NCBI GenBank assembly: GCA_030765605.1
Contig: JAVCCG010000056.1
Location: forward strand, 1 to 54,969
Length of the DNA: 54,969 nt
Reading direction: 5' to 3'
DNA from: Candidatus Alcyoniella australis
Lineage (GTDB): Bacteria > Lernaellota > Lernaellaia > JAVCCG01 > Alcyoniellaceae
Shown: piece after piece, positions 6,228 to 33,989 of the stretch
How the letters are laid out: every line of letters begins with the position of its first letter
Numbering within the stretch: position 1 is the stretch's first letter
Position numbers and translations under genes: made by a program
The notes under the pieces: model-generated
The model's database searches: none
Seen by the model: the letters and a program-made list of their open reading frames with translations, nothing else
Told to the model about the DNA's origin: nothing

Positions 6228-6263
6228 AAAGTTCACGGATCGGTTGACCCGTGAGGGAACTTT
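6228..6263 (+). promoter_or_regulatory. Leader hairpin ahead of the PAS histidine kinase
   Basis: AAAGTTCACGG at 6228-6238 pairs with CCGTGA plus AACTTT at 6249-6263, giving an 11-bp stem interrupted by a GGG bulge. It sits 35 bases before the chosen start of the kinase gene, so it would be in its 5' leader or overlap its promoter. A regulatory role (operator or mRNA structure) is an inference. Confidence 0.35.
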
Positions 6264-6297
6264 GGCCGACCCAGACCCGAGAAGTGGAGATCGATTG

Positions 6298-9200
6298 ATG
6301 AGTAAACAGGACCGGGACGAGCTGCTTAAACGGATCGCACAGCTCGAGGATGAAAAGAAGCTGTTGGAGCAACTGTGCGAGGAGAGCGCACAAAGATTTT
6401 CGCAACAGCAGCGTATCATCGACACGGTCCTGCAATCGATCCCCAATCCGCTGATGATCATCGACGTCGAGCAATACACGGTGGTCGGCGCCAACCCCGC
6501 GGCCAACTGCGAGGTCAACAGCCGCCTTAAGACCTGCTTCAACATCTGCCATCACCGCGACGAGCCCTGCGGTCTGGGAGGCGAGAACTGTCCGGTCGAT
6601 ATGGTCAAACAAAGCGGCGAGCCGGTGGTGGTCGAACACGAGCACTACACATCGCAAGGAGAGCGGCGCGAGGCCGAGATCCACGTCTTTCCGATCAAGG
6701 ACGATCAGGGGCGGGTAGTCCAGGTGATCCAATACTGCCTGGACATCACGGCCAGCAAGACCGCCCGGCTGGAGGCCGAGCAGGCCCGCGCCTTTCTGAT
6801 GGAAGTGATCAACGCCGCGCCCTCGACGATCTACGTCAAGGACCAGGACGGGCGCTATCTGCTGGTTAACAGGGAGATGGCCAAGCTATTTGGTATGACC
6901 TCGGAGGTAATGACCGGCATGACCGACGCCTCCTTTGCCAACCTGTCGAACAACAGCCTGGAACAGGCCGAGAAGTTCCGCGCCGACGACCTGGAGGTGA
7001 TCCAGAGCAAGCAGCCGAAGTTTGTGGCGGAGGAATCGTTCACCAGGCCCGACGGCGTAGTCCGTCACTTCCAGACCTACAAGATCCCGATCATGCTCGA
7101 CCAAAATCCCGACTGCGTACTCGGGATTTCCACCGACATCACCGAACACAAGCAGGCGCAGGTAGAGGCGACCGAGGGCCAGCGGCGCTTTAAGGGCCTG
7201 TTCGACAACCTGAACAGCTCGGTATTGATTTACGAGGCCGTGGACGAGGGGCGGAACTTCGTGATCCGCGACATCAACCAGGCAGGACTCGAGGTCAGCA
7301 ACAAATCGCTGGACCAAATCGTGGACAAGTTGGTCTCCGATGTCTACCCCGGACTCGAGGCCTCGGGGCTGGTCGATTTGTTCCGCAAGGTCTGGCTTAG
7401 CGGCGAACCGATGCGTCAGCCGCTGTTCAAATACGAGGACGACCGGCTCACACTCTGGGTCGCCAGCTACATCTACAAGCTCCCCTCGGGCGAAATAGTG
7501 GCGATCTTCGACGATCTGACCGAGCGCAAGCTGGCAGAGGACCAGCAGCGCAGCGACTACGTTTTCTTGCAGACCCTGATCGACACCATCTCCAGCCCGA
7601 TCTTCTACAAGGACGCCAAGGGGATCTATACCGGCTGCAACGCTGCTTTCGAGCAATACATCGGCCTGACCAGGGAAAAAATCGTCGGCTCCACGGTTTA
7701 CGACATCGCGCCGCGCGAGCTGGCCGAGGTCTACCAGCGGGCGGACGACAACCTGCTCAAGGCGGGCGGCTCTCAGCAATACGAGGCCCAGGTGCGCTAC
7801 GCCGACGGGACGCTGCACGATGTGATCTTCAACAAGGCGGTGTTCAAACGCGCCGAGGGCGAGCCGGACGGTATCATCGGCGTGATCATCGACATCACCG
7901 AGCGTAAGTTGGCCGAGGAACGTCTGCGACAGGGGGAAAAACGCTTTCGCGAGCTGGCCGAGATGCTGCCCCAGATTGTGTTCGAGCTTGATACCGAGGG
8001 TCGGCTAACCTTCGTCAATCAACAGATGTATCAGTTCACCGATCTGACCCCGGAACAGGTCGAGCGCGGATTCAACGGGCTGGAGCTGGTCGTCCCTGAT
8101 GACATCGAACTGGCGACCCGGATTTTGAGTGATCTGTTGTCCGGCGGACACATGGCGCCCCAGGAGTTCGAAATCCGGGGCCGCAACGGCCGCCCGCTCC
8201 CGGTGCTGGCTTACGCCACGGCGGTCGAGCACAACGGCCAAATCACCGGCCTACGCTGCATCCTGCTCGACATCAGGGATAGCAAGCGGCAGCAGCAACG
8301 GCTGGCCGAGTCGGAGGAGCGCTTCCGCACGCTGTTCGAGATGGCCCCCGACGCTTACTACATCAGCGAGCTCGACGGCACGCTGATCGACGGCAACCTC
8401 GCCGCTGAAAAGCTGATCGGCTACCCCCGCGAACAACTGATCGGCTCGAATTTCCTCGAGCTCGGCCTGCTCGCATCGGAGGACATTCCGTGCGCCGCAG
8501 AACTGCTATACAAAAACAACCAGGGCCTGGGCACCGGACCGGACGAGCTGACGCTCAAATCCGGCGACGGCAGACGCCTCACCGTCGAGATCCACACCCG
8601 CCCGGCCAAAATCGGCGAGCGCACGCTGGTCTTGGGATTAGCCCGCGACATAACGGCGCGCAAGCTGATCGAGCAGCAGATGCAGCAACAGCAGAAGATG
8701 GAATCGATCGGCACTCTGGCCAGCGGCGTGGCCCATGAGATCAACAACCCGCTGCACGTGATCGTCAATTACAGCGAGCTGATCGCCGAGCGCAAATGCG
8801 TGGACCCCGAACGCACCGCTGAATACGCCCGAATCGTAGTCCAGGAATGCGACCGGGCGGCGCGGATCGTCCAGGGGCTGATGCGCTTCGCCCGCCAGCA
8901 GCCTGAGGAGATCACCCCGACGCCGATCGCCGAGTTGGTCGAACAGACCGCGTGCCTGTTCCGCGGCATGCTGAAAAACGATCAAATCGACTTGGAGCTC
9001 GACGTGCCCGACGGTTTGCCGTTGGTCCCCTGCCGAACGCAACAAATTCAGCAGGCGCTGCTGGGCTTGGTCAACAACGCCCGCGATTCGCTCAACGCCA
9101 AATACGGGGATCAGACCGAGGTCAAACGTGTGAGCGTCAGCGTGCGGCCACTGGAGCGCGACGGCGCGAGCTGGGTGCGCATCGCGGTGCGCGACAACGG

Positions 9201-9390
9201 CGAGGGGGTCGATCCGAGTCTGAGCGAGCGGATCTTCGAACCGTTCTTCACTTCCCGCGATCGCAGCAGCAGTTCCGGTTTGGGGTTGGCCGTGGGATAC
9301 AACATCATGCAAGACCACGGCGGCGAACTGTCCTTTGACAGCGAGCCGGGCGTCTACGCCGAGTTCCGCCTCGACCTTAAGGCTCAGTAA
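6298..9390 (+). CDS. Multi-PAS cytoplasmic sensor histidine kinase
   Basis: A 1030-residue soluble kinase. The ATG at 6298 follows a GTGGAG site at about 6284. A short coiled coil (residues 1-40) leads to about six consecutive PAS/PAC units (roughly 40-155, 165-280, 290-415, 425-545, 555-670, 680-795). The dimerisation domain has the H-box GVAHEINNPLH with phospho-acceptor His813. The ATPase domain has the N-box NNARDSLN, a G1 box DNGEGVD, the F-box EPFFTS and a G2 box SGLGLAVGYNI. The first PAS carries Cys80, Cys84, Cys91 and Cys98, which could bind metal or sense redox. No membrane helices are present, so it senses internal signals. No response regulator gene is adjacent, making it an orphan kinase here. 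Confidence 0.9.
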   Translation: MSKQDRDELLKRIAQLEDEKKLLEQLCEESAQRFSQQQRIIDTVLQSIPNPLMIIDVEQYTVVGANPAANCEVNSRLKTCFNICHHRDEPCGLGGENCPVDMVKQSGEPVVVEHEHYTSQGERREAEIHVFPIKDDQGRVVQVIQYCLDITASKTARLEAEQARAFLMEVINAAPSTIYVKDQDGRYLLVNREMAKLFGMTSEVMTGMTDASFANLSNNSLEQAEKFRADDLEVIQSKQPKFVAEESFTRPDGVVRHFQTYKIPIMLDQNPDCVLGISTDITEHKQAQVEATEGQRRFKGLFDNLNSSVLIYEAVDEGRNFVIRDINQAGLEVSNKSLDQIVDKLVSDVYPGLEASGLVDLFRKVWLSGEPMRQPLFKYEDDRLTLWVASYIYKLPSGEIVAIFDDLTERKLAEDQQRSDYVFLQTLIDTISSPIFYKDAKGIYTGCNAAFEQYIGLTREKIVGSTVYDIAPRELAEVYQRADDNLLKAGGSQQYEAQVRYADGTLHDVIFNKAVFKRAEGEPDGIIGVIIDITERKLAEERLRQGEKRFRELAEMLPQIVFELDTEGRLTFVNQQMYQFTDLTPEQVERGFNGLELVVPDDIELATRILSDLLSGGHMAPQEFEIRGRNGRPLPVLAYATAVEHNGQITGLRCILLDIRDSKRQQQRLAESEERFRTLFEMAPDAYYISELDGTLIDGNLAAEKLIGYPREQLIGSNFLELGLLASEDIPCAAELLYKNNQGLGTGPDELTLKSGDGRRLTVEIHTRPAKIGERTLVLGLARDITARKLIEQQMQQQQKMESIGTLASGVAHEINNPLHVIVNYSELIAERKCVDPERTAEYARIVVQECDRAARIVQGLMRFARQQPEEITPTPIAELVEQTACLFRGMLKNDQIDLELDVPDGLPLVPCRTQQIQQALLGLVNNARDSLNAKYGDQTEVKRVSVSVRPLERDGASWVRIAVRDNGEGVDPSLSERIFEPFFTSRDRSSSSGLGLAVGYNIMQDHGGELSFDSEPGVYAEFRLDLKAQ

Positions 9391-10433: not shown

Positions 10434-12323
10434 GTGCTGATAATTCTAAAGTCGGACTGCCGTCCGCAAGACAAACGCCAACTTGAGGAGTTCCTCAAGG
10501 AGGCGGACCTTCGCGTGGCCGACCTGGACAACACCGAGGAGCCGTGCATCGGCGCGGTGGGAGGCAAGGGCGTCGACCCGCTGCGGGTACAGATGTTTGC
10601 CTGCGTTTCGCGCGTAGTGCAGCTCTCCAAGCCCTACAAGCTGGCCAGCCGCGAGATGCACCCCGAGAACAGCGTGGTGCGCATCGGCGACGTGGCAGTG
10701 GGCGGCGACAAAGTGGTTGTGATCGCCGGGCCCTGCGCCGTGGAGAGCGAAGAGCAGATCATGAGCTCGGCCCAAATCGTCAAAGCCAGCGGCGCGGTGA
10801 TTTTGCGCGGCGGCGCGTTCAAGCCGCGCACCTCGCCCTACGCCTTCCAGGGGCTCGAGGAACAGGGACTCAAGCTGTTGGCCAAGGCGCGTGAGGCCAC
10901 GGGCCTGCCGTTTATCACCGAGATCACATCGCCGGAGTACATGGAGCTGATGGCCCAATATTGCGACGCGGTGCAGGTCGGCGCGCGCAACATGCAGAAC
11001 TTCGAACTGCTCAAGCGCGTGGGCCAGCACAAGCTGCCGGTAATGCTCAAGCGCGGAATGTCGGCCAAGATCGAGGATCTGCTGATGGCCGCGGAGTACA
11101 TCCTCTCCCAGGGCAATCCCAACGTGATTCTCTGCGAGCGCGGCATCCGCACCTTCGAGTCGGCCACGCGCAACACCCTGGACATCTCGGCGGTGCCCGT
11201 GCTCAAGGAGCTGACCCACCTGCCGGTGATCGTCGACCCCAGCCACGCCATCGGCATCCGCGACAAGGTGATGCCCATGGCGCGCTCGGCCATCGCCTGC
11301 GGAGCGGATGGCGTGATGATCGAAGTCCACCCCGAGCCGGACAAGGCGTTATCCGACGGCCCGCAGTCGCTCTACCCCGAGCAGTTCGAGAAGCTGATGC
11401 GCGAGATCCAGGCGATCTGCCCGATCATCGGCCGCCAGTTGGACATGAACCTGACTATTTCGCGGATGAGCGATCGCGCTCCGGACGCGCGCCAGGTGGC
11501 GTTCCAGGGAGTGCCCGGCGCGTTCTCGGGCCGCGCGGTGCGCCAGTTTTTCGGCGAGGAGGTCCAGCCGCTGCCCTGCGAAATGTTCGACGACGTGTTC
11601 GACCAGATCGAGTCCGGCGAGGTGCTGTTCGGCGTGGTCCCGCTGGAGAACTCCAACGGCGGATCAGTGCACGAGGTCTACGACCTGCTGTTGCGGCACG
11701 AACAGATCAAGATCCGCGGCGAGCTGCGGCTGCGCATCAACCAGACGCTGATCGGCCACCCCGGCGCAAGCCTCGGGCAAATCCGGCGCGTCTACTCCCA
11801 CCCACAGGCTCTGGCCCAGTGCCACCGCTACCTGCGCGCGCATCCGGATTGGGAGCGGCTGCCGACGCTCGACACTGCGGGCGCTGTCAAATTCGTCAAG
11901 GACCGCGGCAAGCCCGAGGAGGCGGCGCTCGCCAGCTTCGAGTCGGCCAAGATCTACGACATGAGCGTGCTGGCCGAATCGATCGAGGACGAGCCGTCGA
12001 ACTACACGCGCTTTGCTGTAATCGGCCGCGGGGCGGATCAGCCGGAGCAGCCGGACAAGGTCTCGCTGGTCTACGCCACGCAGGATCGTCCCGGCGCGCT
12101 GCTCTCCACGCTGCAGGATTTCGCCGAGTACAAGGTCAACCTGAGCAAGCTCGAATCACGGCCGGTGCTGGGCAATCCGCTGGAACACATGTTCTACGTG
12201 GATCTCGAGCTCGACCCGCAATCGCGGGACTTCGCCGAGCTGATGGAGCAGCTGGGCAACAAGACCGTGCTGCTGCGCGACTTGGGGCACTATCGCAAAG
12301 CTAGCCACCGGATCGATGGGTAG
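10434..12323 (+). CDS. Fused DAHP synthase - prephenate dehydratase
   Basis: A 629-residue bifunctional enzyme. The GTG start at 10434 follows GGAG at 10422. Residues 1-70 form the ferredoxin-like regulatory domain of type I-beta DAHP synthases. Residues 75-345 are the synthase barrel ([28 protein letters not shown]), which condenses PEP and erythrose-4-phosphate. From residue 354 ([15 protein letters not shown]) it is prephenate dehydratase, with the catalytic SNYTRF motif, followed by an ACT domain at about 545-622 carrying the GALL and ESRP phenylalanine-binding motifs. PheA is usually free or fused to chorismate mutase, so this fusion partner is unusual. It opens an operon with a second DAHP synthase and tyrA, and is probably feedback-controlled by Phe and/or Tyr. 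Confidence 0.9.
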
Positions 12324-12438: not shown

Positions 12439-13467
12439 ATGATTATAGTTTTCGAAACACATGCCACCGAGGAGCAGATCCGGCAGGTGACGCACAGGGC
12501 CGAACAGCTCGGCCTGGGCGCCCATCGCTCGGACGGCGCCTCGAACACGGTGCTGGGACTGGTCGGCGACCGCAGCAAGATCGCGGACATCAGACAGTTC
12601 GTGGTGCTGCCCGGCGTGCGCGATGTGATCCCCGTTTCCAAGCCCTACAAACTGGCCAGCCGCGAGTTCCACCCCGACGACACCCTGCTGCAGATCGGCG
12701 AGACGACCATCGGCGGCCAGGAAGTGGTGGTGATGGCCGGACCGTGCTCGATCGAGTCCGCGGACCAGATCGAGGTCACTGCAGCGGCCGTGGCCGCGGC
12801 AGGCGCGCGCTTCTTACGCGGCGGAGCTTTCAAGCCGCGCTCGTCGCCCTACTCTTTTCAGGGATTGGGCGAGGAGGGCCTTAAGCTGATCCGCGAGGCC
12901 GCCGACCACCACGGACTGTTGGTAATCACCGAGGTGATGACCATCGCCCAGATCGAGCTGGTGGCGAGCTACGCCGACGTGCTGCAGATCGGCACGCGCA
13001 ACATGCAGAACTTCCCGCTGCTCACGCAGCTTGGAAAATGCGAGAGGCCGGTGCTGCTCAAGCGCGGGATCTCGGCGACCATCGAGGAATGGCTGATGAG
13101 CGCCGAATACATACTGGCCGCGGGCAATTCGCAGGTCGTGCTCTGCGAGCGCGGCATCCGTACCTTTGAGACGGCCACACGCAACACCCTGGACCTCTCG
13201 GCCGTGCCGGTAATTAAGAAACTCAGCCATTTGCCGATCATCGTCGATCCCAGCCACGGCGTGGGCAACCGCGAGTTCGTGGCCGCATTGGCGCGGGCCG
13301 CAGTGGCCGTGGGCGCCGACGGCGTGATGATCGAGGTCCACCCCGATCCGGACAGCGCGCTGTCCGACGGCCCGCAATCGCTGACCCCCGATCAGTTCGC
13401 CGCGCTGATGAACCGTTGCCGGATCATCGCCACCACCCTCGGACGCAAGATCGCCAAGGGCGGCTGA
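12439..13467 (+). CDS. aroF: DAHP synthase, type I-beta (second copy)
   Basis: A 342-residue 3-deoxy-7-phosphoheptulonate synthase. It has the N-terminal ferredoxin-like domain (residues 1-65), a linker [15 protein letters not shown], then the barrel with [31 protein letters not shown] and DPSHGVG. This resembles the Thermotoga enzyme, which is inhibited by Tyr and Phe through the N-terminal domain. It is closely related to the synthase half of the gene before it, and a local duplication is the simplest explanation. Its stop overlaps the start of the tyrA gene (TGATG), so they are translationally coupled. Differential feedback control of the two synthases is likely but not visible. Confidence 0.92.
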
Positions 13468-26590: not shown

Positions 26591-27601
26591 TCAGACGTTG
26601 AACTTGACGTGCATGATCTCGCCGTCTTGCACCAGGTAGGTCTTGCCCTCTTGGCGCAGCAGGGCGGCGGAACGGCAGGCGGGGAGCGAGCCGAGTTTAA
26701 TCAGGTCTTGCCAGCCCACGACCTCGGCGCGAATGAACCCGCGTGCGAGGTCCGAATGGATGCGGCCGGCCGCGACCTTGGCCGGGGTGTTGCGCGGGAT
26801 CAGCCAGCCGCGCACCTCGTCCTCACCCACGGTGAAGAACTGGATCAGCTGGAGTTGGTCGAGGATTTCGCGCACAAGCATATCGACCGCGGGCTCGCTC
26901 ATGCCCAGGTCGGCCAGGAATGCGGCCTGCTCCGAAGGGTCGAGCAGCGCCAGCTCCGCGGCAATGCCCAGGGGCGCAGCGGCCACGCGGCGCTCGCCCG
27001 CGACCTGCAGCAGCTCGGGGTCCGGCGTGTACTCCTCCGCGTCCTCGGGAGTGTTGAGCACCAGCAGCTGCGGGATGAACGTCACCAGGTTAAAGCCCGT
27101 CATCGCCTTACGCAGGTCGGGCTCGCAATCCATGGTGCGCAGGGGGCGCTCCTGCTCGAGCCACTTTTGGGCCGCGGCCAGCGCCTCGACCAGACGCGGC
27201 TCGCGCTGCTCCTTGATCAGCCGCTCGCGCATGCGCTCGACGATTCCCAGGTCGGCGAGCATCATCTCGGCGTCCAGGGCCAGCAGTGCGGCGTGCGGAT
27301 CGCTCCCGGAGTTGAAGGCGTCGAGCACGTGCACCAGCAATTCCGAGCCGTGCAGCCGGGTGACGTAGCGCTCCCACTCGTTGCGCCGTCCGCCCTCGCG
27401 CACCTCGAGGGTCATCTCCTCGAGCACGATCTCGGCGCGGGTGGTTTTCTTGGGTTTGTACATCTCGCTGAGCTGATCCAGACGCTCGTCGGCCACGCGC
27501 ACGGTGACCGGTCCCTGGTGAGAGGCCATCTGGATGCCTGAGAGCGCCTGAAGCGCGCTGGTCTTGCCGCAACGTGGTTGTCCGATAAGCGTGGCTCGCA
27601 T
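26591..27601 (-). CDS. Divergent YchF-like nucleotide-binding protein
   Basis: A 336-residue protein related to the Obg/YchF family. It keeps a P-loop (GQPRCGKTSA, residues 7-16), the DERLDQLSEMYKPKK segment that matches the DPRLD...KP region of YchF, and the C-terminal TGS-like DUF933 domain (about 255-336: FFTVGEDEVRGWLI, AGRIHSDLARGFIRAEVV, and HVKFNV at the end). However, the DxAG switch II motif expected after the KP region is absent, and the base-specificity loop reads LNTPED rather than the usual NVxE. It may bind a nucleotide without normal hydrolysis, or use another base. It is not the housekeeping YchF. Its partner and role are unknown. Confidence 0.65.
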   Translation of the reverse strand: MRATLIGQPRCGKTSALQALSGIQMASHQGPVTVRVADERLDQLSEMYKPKKTTRAEIVLEEMTLEVREGGRRNEWERYVTRLHGSELLVHVLDAFNSGSDPHAALLALDAEMMLADLGIVERMRERLIKEQREPRLVEALAAAQKWLEQERPLRTMDCEPDLRKAMTGFNLVTFIPQLLVLNTPEDAEEYTPDPELLQVAGERRVAAAPLGIAAELALLDPSEQAAFLADLGMSEPAVDMLVREILDQLQLIQFFTVGEDEVRGWLIPRNTPAKVAAGRIHSDLARGFIRAEVVGWQDLIKLGSLPACRSAALLRQEGKTYLVQDGEIMHVKFNV

Positions 27602-31193: not shown

Positions 31194-32801
31194 TCAGTGT
31201 TTTTCGGCGTTACCGTCCACAGCCTGTGACAGGGCCTGCACCGCGTGTTCGAGGGTGCGGCTGATCTTGGAGTCGGGCTCCCAGGAGCTGATCGGCAGCG
31301 CCTGAAGCATGATCAGCGCGCAGCCTGAGGCCAGAGCTGCGCAGCCCAGTAGCGGCGAAGTGCCCAGGCCGACCGTGCCGTGCAGCAGTCCCACTGCCAG
31401 CACCAGGGCCACGGCGTGCGGGAGGGCCGATGCCAGGCGTACCCGCGAGGCCCGGCGCGAGATCGAGGCGGCCAGGCCCACAGCGTTGATCACGCCGTCG
31501 AGGTCCGGCGATTCGACGATCACGTCGGCCCCCGGCGGCACAGCCCCGGCCGGAGCGCCGAGCACCACCGCCAGGTCGACCTCGCGCGCCAGCTCGGGGT
31601 CGAGCAGCGGCCCGCTGACCAGTGCCACGCACTCGCCTGCGGCGCGCCATTGTCGAATCAGTCCGGCCAGTCCCTCGGGTCCGGGCTCCACCGCCTCGAG
31701 CGCCGGTAGGCGTTCCAGGGCGATCCGTCCCGCGACTTCGCGCGGTTGAGCCAGCGTTGCAGTACAGCCCCCGGCCTTGAGCGCCTCGACCACCAGTCCG
31801 GCCTCCATGCGCAGGGTCGAGGCCAGCGCCAGGAATCCCAGGCAGCGTCCGCCCAGTGCAACCAGAGTGGGCTTGGCGCCGCTTTGCTCGCAACGCGCCG
31901 TGTGCTCGGCGAACCCGGCCACGTCGATCCCTCGCGATTCGAGCAGCTCGGGTCGACCGACCAGCGCCTCGAGGTCGTCGACGGTTGTGCGGTAGCCCAG
32001 CCCGGGCAGTTGCTCGAGCCGCTCCGCGGGCATGGAGTCCAGTCGCTTGAGCAGGTCCACCAGCTCGTCGTTGTTCACGCCCGGCGCCAGGCCCAGGTCC
32101 ACGATCGACGGCGAGGACGAGACCAGCAATCCGGAGTCGACGAACAGCGCGCGGTCGATCTTGCCCGGCAGGCGTAGTGTGCGCCAGGTGCAGGGGCGTA
32201 TGCTGAATTCGCCGCCGCGCGCCGCAGCCACCAGCAGCAGGGCCGACAGGCCGAACGAGAGCGTGACCGGCGGGCCCACGGCCAGCACTGCCAGCATTGC
32301 CAGTCCGGCGGAGCTTGCGGCGGTTCCCGCGTTGTCGAGCACGGCCCAGATTCCCGCGGCCAGCAGCGTGGCCAACAGCAACAACGGCAGACTGAAACGG
32401 GTCAGCCGATCCGGCCCGGGGGGCGAGGCTGCGTCCACCTCGCCCAGCGCCTTGCGCGCCAGGTTGCGTCCCGCGGCCCAGATCAGCGCGCTGAGTGCGA
32501 CGAAGATCATGTACGGCCCGCCGAGGCTCAGCCGCGGATCGTCCGGTCGCAGCAGCGCCCACAGCGCCATGCCGCAACAGGCCAGGCAGGCCACGACCGG
32601 CAGCGGCCAGGGGCTGAGCAGCGGACTCCGGGCCTCGCGTAGCGGCACCACGATCAGCAGCACGGTCAGCGGCAAACCCAGGCCCAGCTGGATCCACTCC
32701 AGCGCGCCGGACTGTTCCGCGAGCACCACTGCGAACAGCGTGATCAGCATCATCGGCAGGCCCAGGGCCAAAACAATCCACATTATTCGGTCGCGTCCCA
32801 T
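31194..32801 (-). CDS. Catalytically degenerate P1B-type ATPase homologue
   Basis: A 535-residue membrane protein with paired helices at about 8-55, 65-110, 138-190 and 455-500. The order of motifs matches heavy-metal P-type ATPases, but each is altered. The CPC helix reads AVGPPVTLSF (174-183). The region before the phosphorylation site, GGEFS...KIDRALFV, aligns well, yet DKTGT is replaced by VDSGL, with Val221 where the Asp should be. VGRPELLESRGID (281-293) matches the nucleotide-domain segment VGN..L...G. TGD becomes AQP (351-353), and GDGxND becomes SGPLLD (396-401). It therefore should not form a phosphoenzyme. A structural or regulatory pseudoenzyme is inferred. No active partner is in the window. 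AAGGA precedes the ATG. Confidence 0.72.
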   Translation of the reverse strand: MGRDRIMWIVLALGLPMMLITLFAVVLAEQSGALEWIQLGLGLPLTVLLIVVPLREARSPLLSPWPLPVVACLACCGMALWALLRPDDPRLSLGGPYMIFVALSALIWAAGRNLARKALGEVDAASPPGPDRLTRFSLPLLLLATLLAAGIWAVLDNAGTAASSAGLAMLAVLAVGPPVTLSFGLSALLLVAAARGGEFSIRPCTWRTLRLPGKIDRALFVDSGLLVSSSPSIVDLGLAPGVNNDELVDLLKRLDSMPAERLEQLPGLGYRTTVDDLEALVGRPELLESRGIDVAGFAEHTARCEQSGAKPTLVALGGRCLGFLALASTLRMEAGLVVEALKAGGCTATLAQPREVAGRIALERLPALEAVEPGPEGLAGLIRQWRAAGECVALVSGPLLDPELAREVDLAVVLGAPAGAVPPGADVIVESPDLDGVINAVGLAASISRRASRVRLASALPHAVALVLAVGLLHGTVGLGTSPLLGCAALASGCALIMLQALPISSWEPDSKISRTLEHAVQALSQAVDGNAEKH

Positions 32802-32841
32802 GCCGGTCCTTGTAGCCTCCAGCAGCGTGTTTAGTCAAACT

Positions 32842-33024
32842 TAGCCTGGATTATTCATGAGGCTCGGTTACGAGGCGTGCAAGATGCCGCAAGAACAAGG
32901 AAGCCGAGTTGATACTCCGCAGGCGTACCCACTGCGGTACGTCGAGGACGGATCAGTGAGGATGACGAAGTTATTGCGAGCAGATTGTGCGCCGCAGTAG
33001 AAGCCTCATGAATAATCCAGGCTA
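32842..33024. repeat. MITE-like inverted repeat, copy A (full length)
   Basis: A 183-bp element with 23-bp perfect terminal inverted repeats: the left end runs TAGCCTGGATTATTCATG, then AGGCT, and the right end is its exact complement (33002-33024). Inside are GAGGCGTGCAAGATGCCGC, ACAAGGAAG, a GTACC-CACTGC-GGTAC hairpin with the following GTCGAGGACGGATC, and TTGTGCGCCGCAGTAGAAGC. There is no coding capacity. It occupies the divergent promoter gap between the ATPase-like gene and the DsbA-like gene. Confidence 0.8.
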
Positions 33025-33095
33025 GGTGAGCGTTCCGATTGACTCTCGGCCGACCCTTGACCACAATACGCAAATAATTATCCAGGGGAATCGAA

Positions 33096-33989
33096 ATGAA
33101 CGAAAAAGGATCAATCATACCGACGATTATCATCGTCTTCGTTTGCCTGGCCGTGGGTTTGGCCACCGGCTGGTTTATCGGATCACAGGGTCTGGGCGGC
33201 AAGGAGCAGCCGGTCAAGCCGACCGCTGACTCCTCGTCCAAGCTCAGCGACCAGCAGGAAGCACAGGTCAAGGCGGCGATCTCTCTGGCGATCGTGGCCC
33301 ACGCCGATGAGCTGGCAGCCGAGGTCTACACCAGCCTCAAGGCCGGCAATGTGGACAGCGAGGCGCTGACCACGCTGCAGCGCGTGGCAATGGCCAACCG
33401 CGCCAGCAATCGACAGCGCCCCGAACGCACCCCCGAGGACCATGACAAGGTCTGGGACGTCCAGGTCAACGACAGCATGGTCCGAGGGCCCGAGAACGCG
33501 GTGGTGACGATAGTTAAATTTAGCGAGTTCCAGTGCCCGGCCTGCTCCAAGGCCTATGCCAGCCTGGAACATATCATGGAGCAATACCCGGGCAAGATCC
33601 GCCTGGTGTTCAAAAGCAAGATTCTGCAGCGCCACACCGAGGCGCCGCTGGCGCACAACGCGGCCCTGGCCGCAGGCGAGCAGGATAAGTTCTGGGAGTT
33701 CTACGACAAGATCTACCAGGCCCGCAACGGCCCTGATCGCCGCGACGCGCTCAAACGCGAGAATTTGCTCAAGTACGCCCAGGAGCTGGGGCTGGATATG
33801 GCGCGTTTTGAAAAGGACATGGATTCGGACAAGTTCGCCGACTTCCTGGCCAAGGAGGCCCGCGAAGGCGACGCTCTGAAGATTCGCGCCACGCCCACGA
33901 TCTTTATCAACGGCCACCGCTACACCGGCCTGCCGCGCAACCTCAAGGAGATCGTGGAGAAATACATCGGGCAGCCCCAGGACAAATAA
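33096..33989 (+). CDS. Membrane-anchored DsbA-like thiol oxidoreductase
   Basis: A 297-residue protein. GGGGA precedes the ATG. A single N-terminal membrane helix (IIIVFVCLAVGLATGWFIG) anchors a periplasmic domain; residues 45-115 are a helical linker. The thioredoxin-fold DsbA domain starts near residue 130 with VVTIVKFSEFQCPACSKA, whose active-site pair is Cys147 and Cys150. The cis-Pro loop is in RATPTIFINGHRYTG. This matches the Com1/BdbD-like class in which the helical insert follows the first strand pair. Function is periplasmic disulfide formation or isomerisation, and the electron partner is unknown. Copy A of the inverted repeat lies directly upstream. Confidence 0.88.
   Translation: MNEKGSIIPTIIIVFVCLAVGLATGWFIGSQGLGGKEQPVKPTADSSSKLSDQQEAQVKAAISLAIVAHADELAAEVYTSLKAGNVDSEALTTLQRVAMANRASNRQRPERTPEDHDKVWDVQVNDSMVRGPENAVVTIVKFSEFQCPACSKAYASLEHIMEQYPGKIRLVFKSKILQRHTEAPLAHNAALAAGEQDKFWEFYDKIYQARNGPDRRDALKRENLLKYAQELGLDMARFEKDMDSDKFADFLAKEAREGDALKIRATPTIFINGHRYTGLPRNLKEIVEKYIGQPQDK

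Follow-up and report, generated by a model that had tools for sequence, protein, structure and literature searches.

A candidate P1B-type pseudo-ATPase without an actuator domain in Candidatus Alcyoniella australis

What becomes of a heavy-metal pump that has lost the residues with which it pumps? Pseudoenzymes are well described for kinases and for many soluble enzymes, but hardly for P-type pumps. The question is raised here by one gene in the window, by which we mean the whole stretch of 54,969 nucleotides that was analysed (Candidatus Alcyoniella australis, contig JAVCCG010000056.1). The gene (P0001; 31194..32801) lies on the reverse strand, to which all coordinates given below for parts of the gene also refer. 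A sequence-only reading had described it as intact and long, and its product as a P1B-type ATPase homologue that has lost every catalytic motif. We found an unbroken ORF of 535 aa with an ATG start at these coordinates. Our preferred reading of this gene, to which we give a probability of roughly 0.6, is that it encodes a P1B (CopA-type) pseudo-ATPase that would be maintained for a non-catalytic role, without ATP turnover.

Descent from a heavy-metal ATPase was shown by comparisons at the protein level. The 535-aa protein matched the NCBIfam models PRK10671 (CopA; NF007952; E = 4.2e-14) and TIGR01525 (E = 2.2e-9), in each case with a score well short of the curated cut-off; a Pfam search returned no match. 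In a phmmer search against the PDB, residues 130-509 matched the CopA of A. fulgidus (3j08, E = 2.2e-13). A family HMM built from 30 active P1B ATPases gave the protein 93.8 bits, against 6.7 bits for the best of 200 local shuffles that served as control, which rules out a chance or compositional match. The profile search, being so far above chance, bears out the proposed homology to P1B-type ATPases together with the NCBIfam and CopA matches. The same homology had been thought to cover the whole length of the protein, which holds for residues 131-508 and fails for residues 1-130. The HMM assigned 82.5 bits to residues 253-508, 10.5 bits to residues 131-250 and none to residues 1-130, which resemble a P1B ATPase by helix count alone (four hydrophobic helices). 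The highest identity to any P1B relative was 26%, compared with 0.49-0.71 for active members. In a P1B tree, the branch of the pseudo-ATPase was saturated and very long, and the tree left its placement open.

In the AlphaFold model, the P/N part of the protein has a pLDDT of mostly 80-92, while confidence is low before residue 130. Foldseek matched this model to the structures of CopA, ATP7B and ZntA (E down to 1.6e-19, probability 1.00). The model was made with an alignment that included P1B relatives and is not independent of the sequence evidence. In fact, the P/N part modelled without an alignment reached a pLDDT of only 44 and gave no significant fold match, so that the fold evidence depends on the P1B alignment. 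A P1B fold match is thus found for a model fed with P1B relatives. Taking homology, motif losses and Foldseek together, we consider the earlier proposal of a P-type fold without catalysis to be well supported.

The motif losses were read from an L-INS-i (MAFFT) alignment with 30 active P1B ATPases. The phosphorylation motif FDKTGTLT has become FVDSGLLV (DKTGTLT position, here V221-DSGLLV; 32121..32141). Since the S-G of the pseudo-ATPase aligns with the T-G of DKTGT, the register is fixed; the phosphorylated Asp corresponds to V221, as had been noticed from the sequence, and D222 falls on the Lys position. The loss of the CPC metal motif (32265..32273) was also recognized correctly, but its residues in register are P177-P178-V179, with the middle Pro retained, and not GPP. 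TGD, read earlier as AQP, is lost too, its site being either deleted or unalignable. The hinge motif GDGxND does read SGPLLD (S396-GPLL-D401; 31599..31616); its first Asp and both Gly are gone and its final Asp is retained as D401. The statement that every catalytic motif is lost therefore stands for the DKTGT Asp, CPC, TGD and GDG, but not for the last Asp of GDGxND.

Other losses had been overlooked, namely those of the actuator domain, of the SEHP segment and of the metal ligands in M5 and M6. At residues 255-256 (32034..32039), the alignment shows a gap of about 21 aa in place of the SEHP (HP) segment, which binds ATP. In M5 and M6 (residues 435-506; 31284..31499), placed by alignment and HMM, the YN motif corresponds to P461-H462 and MxxSS to L490-ASG-C494. 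The P1B-1 membrane ligands are consequently absent from M4 (CPC to PPV), M5 (YN to PH) and M6 (MxxSS to LASGC). In total, 28 of the 117 near-invariant positions are kept, a count that includes a few matches in A-domain columns which MAFFT filled with M1-M2 residues.

Judged from its aligned motifs, the protein cannot run the P-type (Post-Albers) cycle, since it has lost the phospho-acceptor, the Mg hinge, the segment that binds ATP and the whole domain with the dephosphorylation loop. An active, highly aberrant ATPase would have to use D222 or D401 as nucleophile. The first of these adjoins the lost Asp and the second is the retained last Asp of GDGxND, but the register places D222 on Lys, and the A domain, TGE, SEHP, TGD and the first hinge Asp are all absent. 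A possible parallel is TMEM94/ERMA, whose motifs are non-canonical and for which one group has reported Mg2+ pumping (PMC13322241); however, ERMA retains the Asp, and even so a second group saw no ATPase activity (PMC12134183). We regard such an aberrant ATPase as highly improbable.

The largest change in the protein is the absence of the actuator (A) domain, about 115 aa with TGE, from between M2 and M3. At the junction (residues about 113-130; 32412..32465), GRNLARK runs directly into PDRLTRF of M3, according to the alignments, a manual GRxL match in M2 and the model, in which a helix at 96-122 is followed by one at 132-155 with no structure between them. The loss leaves the flanking helices in frame. 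Before the junction, the secondary structure of the model has four N-terminal helices (residues 3-27, 34-56, 67-84 and 96-122; 32436..32795) in place of MA, MB, M1 and M2, predicted at low confidence and with zero homology signal. The predicted M1, placed by this low-confidence model, bears C72, C75 and C76. After the junction, M3 to M6 and the P/N part align in order, beginning with the M3 and M4 helices (residues 132-198; 32208..32408), which are covered by the phmmer match from residue 130 and by the 10.5-bit part of the HMM match. An extra C-terminal helix (residues 511-534; 31200..31271) is predicted by the model, again at low confidence.

The best-kept sequence is that of the N domain (residues 230-345; 31767..32114), which enters the 82.5-bit part of the HMM match and lies in the well-modelled P/N part. 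It retains GLG and VGRPELLESRGID (the VGxxELLxxxGI stretch), and the GxG is present as G267 and G269. Relative to active pumps, its agreement with the consensus is 0.79, compared with 0.27-0.44 for P, M4 and M5-M6 (P2 0.37, M5-M6 0.27). Active pumps conserve the N domain less than any other of the parts compared; as it is the best kept here, the conservation pattern is inverted. Such an inversion, although seen in one sequence, points to selection on the N domain rather than to uniform decay.

Decay is at the centre of the strongest rival explanation, according to which the gene is a slowly decaying pseudogene, the remnant of an old CopA paralogue that is no longer functional and has survived by chance in a genome rich in GC and poor in stops. 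The very long branch, with identities so far below those of active members, and the disappearance of all catalytic residues at once would be expected of such a relic, and an open frame by itself says little, since GC-rich genes often have open alternative frames. The frame of this gene, however, has normal codon use. Its GC3 (0.84) and CAI (0.63) match those of neighbouring genes along the entire gene and differ from those of its other frames, a comparison that rules out a spurious or out-of-frame ORF. Codon-position periodicity is strong from start to end, with GC1/2/3 of 0.76/0.51/0.84 and no in-frame stop.

We also simulated neutral drift by letting the CopA of this organism diverge to 25% identity and counting stops over a 408-aa stretch. 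The mean number of stops was 8.5, 6.5 and 1.9 at equilibrium GC of 0.60, 0.66 and 0.84, respectively, and the GC1/2/3 profile became flat. The pseudo-ATPase gene, at 22% identity, has neither stops nor frameshifts where drift would yield 2-9 stops, and its profile is not flat. Moreover, at 144 family-novel positions, columns in which it has a residue not seen in any active member, hydropathy still tracks that of the family (r = 0.26; no neutral run exceeded 0.15), although this signal is modest. Indirect and made on a single sequence as they are, these tests show a gene that still evolves as a coding gene. Slow decay is further at odds with the loss of a whole A domain that nevertheless left the flanking helices in frame, and with an N domain that stayed close to the level of active pumps when its surroundings were lost, where uniform decay predicts otherwise. 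The single-sequence tests thus disfavour slow decay, which we consider rather unlikely. The earlier opinion that recent decay is improbable holds up on the same grounds of codon use, drift simulation and uneven domain retention, all taken from one sequence.

The source genome (G000; 4.29 Mb in 157 contigs, 98% complete) encodes a single further P1B ATPase, on contig C143, which is an intact CopA with a length of about 750 aa. We found no orthologue of the pseudo-ATPase in six genomes of the same class, which come from outside the family and order of the organism. None was found either in about 1,200 genomes (a diverse sample and three further phyla), where nothing exceeded the weak level of ordinary pumps; in these large searches the best few candidates per genome were scored, and weak orthologues could escape. 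One genome-contig scan, one viral-contig scan and a plasmid set also gave no orthologue and no match above that level. The near-full-length matches that were examined, from the first 98 relatives and the six same-class genomes, were all canonical P1B pumps with DKTGT, and with GDGxND where the frame was complete. Three neighbours of the gene have same-class orthologues, in different surroundings, and no degenerate P-type-like gene was found beside them. The pseudoenzyme had been called conserved, a description that the class, the 1,200 genomes and the contig, viral and plasmid sets do not bear out; the best reading is that it is lineage-restricted as far as searched. The lack of an orthologue in any set searched is also a point in favour of slow decay. 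Among the same-class genomes, one that is 77% complete carries a canonical P1B ATPase in two open frames of 723 and 160 aa (L037, G005:C3:149083-150265), due to either a frameshift or an assembly error.

No adjacent gene shares the strand of the pseudo-ATPase gene: a DsbA-like gene (33096-33989) is divergent from it, and the gene on its other side, of unknown kind, is convergent with it. There is no partner gene in an operon with it at the locus, and its neighbourhood is not shared with any of the same-class genomes. A functional link to the DsbA-like neighbour is unsupported, as the orthologues of the latter in the class have no such neighbour. Elsewhere in the window, a fusion of DAHP synthase and prephenate dehydratase (10434-12323) has another DAHP synthase (12439-13467) immediately after it, and a 1048-aa histidine kinase that contains about six PAS domains is encoded at 6244-9390. 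A divergent YchF-like GTPase (26591-27601), with a Pfam match to the C-terminal domain only and a TIGR00092 score below cut-off, has a counterpart with 43-48% identity in each of the six same-class genomes.

Between the pseudo-ATPase and DsbA-like genes we found a palindromic, MITE-like element (32838-33027; about 185-190 bp). It is bounded by terminal inverted repeats of 26 bp, and its entire strand forms a single hairpin (z = -13). The source genome has at least 13 full copies including that of the window (13 of 93 candidates were scored), the others being 86-91% identical, and none was found in 59 other genomes. The element ends 37 bp upstream of the start codon of the pseudo-ATPase, so that the promoter must be sought inside the element, on its far side or in the few bases left before the gene. 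No promoter-like site on the strand of the gene turned up near the element in a simple scan. With a repeat so close to the start and no such site, expression of the gene is putative, and a mobile-like repeat in this position is one more feature that slow decay would accommodate.

If the protein is a maintained pseudo-ATPase, as we prefer to think, its membrane helices would anchor the modified P/N headpiece, and the retained N domain may bind a partner protein. We tentatively propose that this P1B pseudo-ATPase without actuator domain or catalysis could be a membrane-anchored regulator or metal sensor acting via its N domain. The role of regulatory subunit or sensor is kept as a hypothesis, no partner gene being adjacent, and selection on the gene is a deduction from one sequence. 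Against a maintained pseudo-ATPase weigh the missing orthologue, the lack of an operon partner and of a shared neighbourhood, and the repeat near the start codon with no promoter-like site. The likeliest class of partner would be a metal-homeostasis protein, for instance the organism's own intact CopA, which the pseudo-ATPase could inhibit, scaffold or tune. This particular partnership, proposed from the co-occurrence of the two proteins in one genome, is doubtful.

A changed metal-sensing site may also be present, comprising H462 at the position of the M5 Asn, C494 at that of the second M6 Ser, and the three Cys of the predicted M1. These replacements invite another explanation, namely a membrane protein that would itself bind a small molecule or metal at this reshaped site, as a sensor or passive conduit. 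In its favour, C487 lies, like C72, C75 and C76, within predicted helices, and the Cys of the own CopA are limited to positions 25, 28, 285, 398 and 400. However, M5-M6 is the least-kept part of the protein, its ten Cys are scattered, several of them in the soluble headpiece, and the location of M1 comes from the low-confidence model. Such a protein is distinctly unlikely.

Compared with P1B-1 CopA (PDB 3j08, 3rfu, 4bbj), the maintained pseudo-ATPase that we favour is arranged alike from M3 to M6, with M5-M6 at the C-terminus, and has an N domain of the same kind, with significant sequence and fold matches. Unlike CopA, it lacks the A domain, phospho-Asp, TGD/GDG, SEHP, CPC, YN and MxxSS as well as an N-terminal metal-binding domain, and it has 535 aa instead of about 750. 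To our knowledge, a bacterial P-type pseudoenzyme of such kind has not been described, and none was found in the open-access literature with the terms used. The nearest precedent that we know is TMEM94/ERMA of animals. This protein is built like a P-type ATPase, has degenerate motifs (DKQGI, GSSANL, no TGES) and a disputed ATPase status; it is eukaryotic, has ten helices, is structurally closest to SPCA and keeps an A-like domain and the Asp (PMC12134183, PMC13322241). The protein studied here is P1B-derived and without A domain or Asp; the likeness is one of concept only. The AdoMetDC prozyme, a catalytically dead paralogue that regulates its active partner (PMC5201418), offers another analogy, in that a dead copy and an active paralogue share one genome and regulation by contact is proposed; the families are unrelated, and for the pseudo-ATPase the interaction is a proposal.

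A P1B relative with headpiece and membrane part but without A domain or catalytic residues would show that the P-type scaffold is reusable without its cycle. It would also offer a natural test of the role of the N domain apart from ATP binding.
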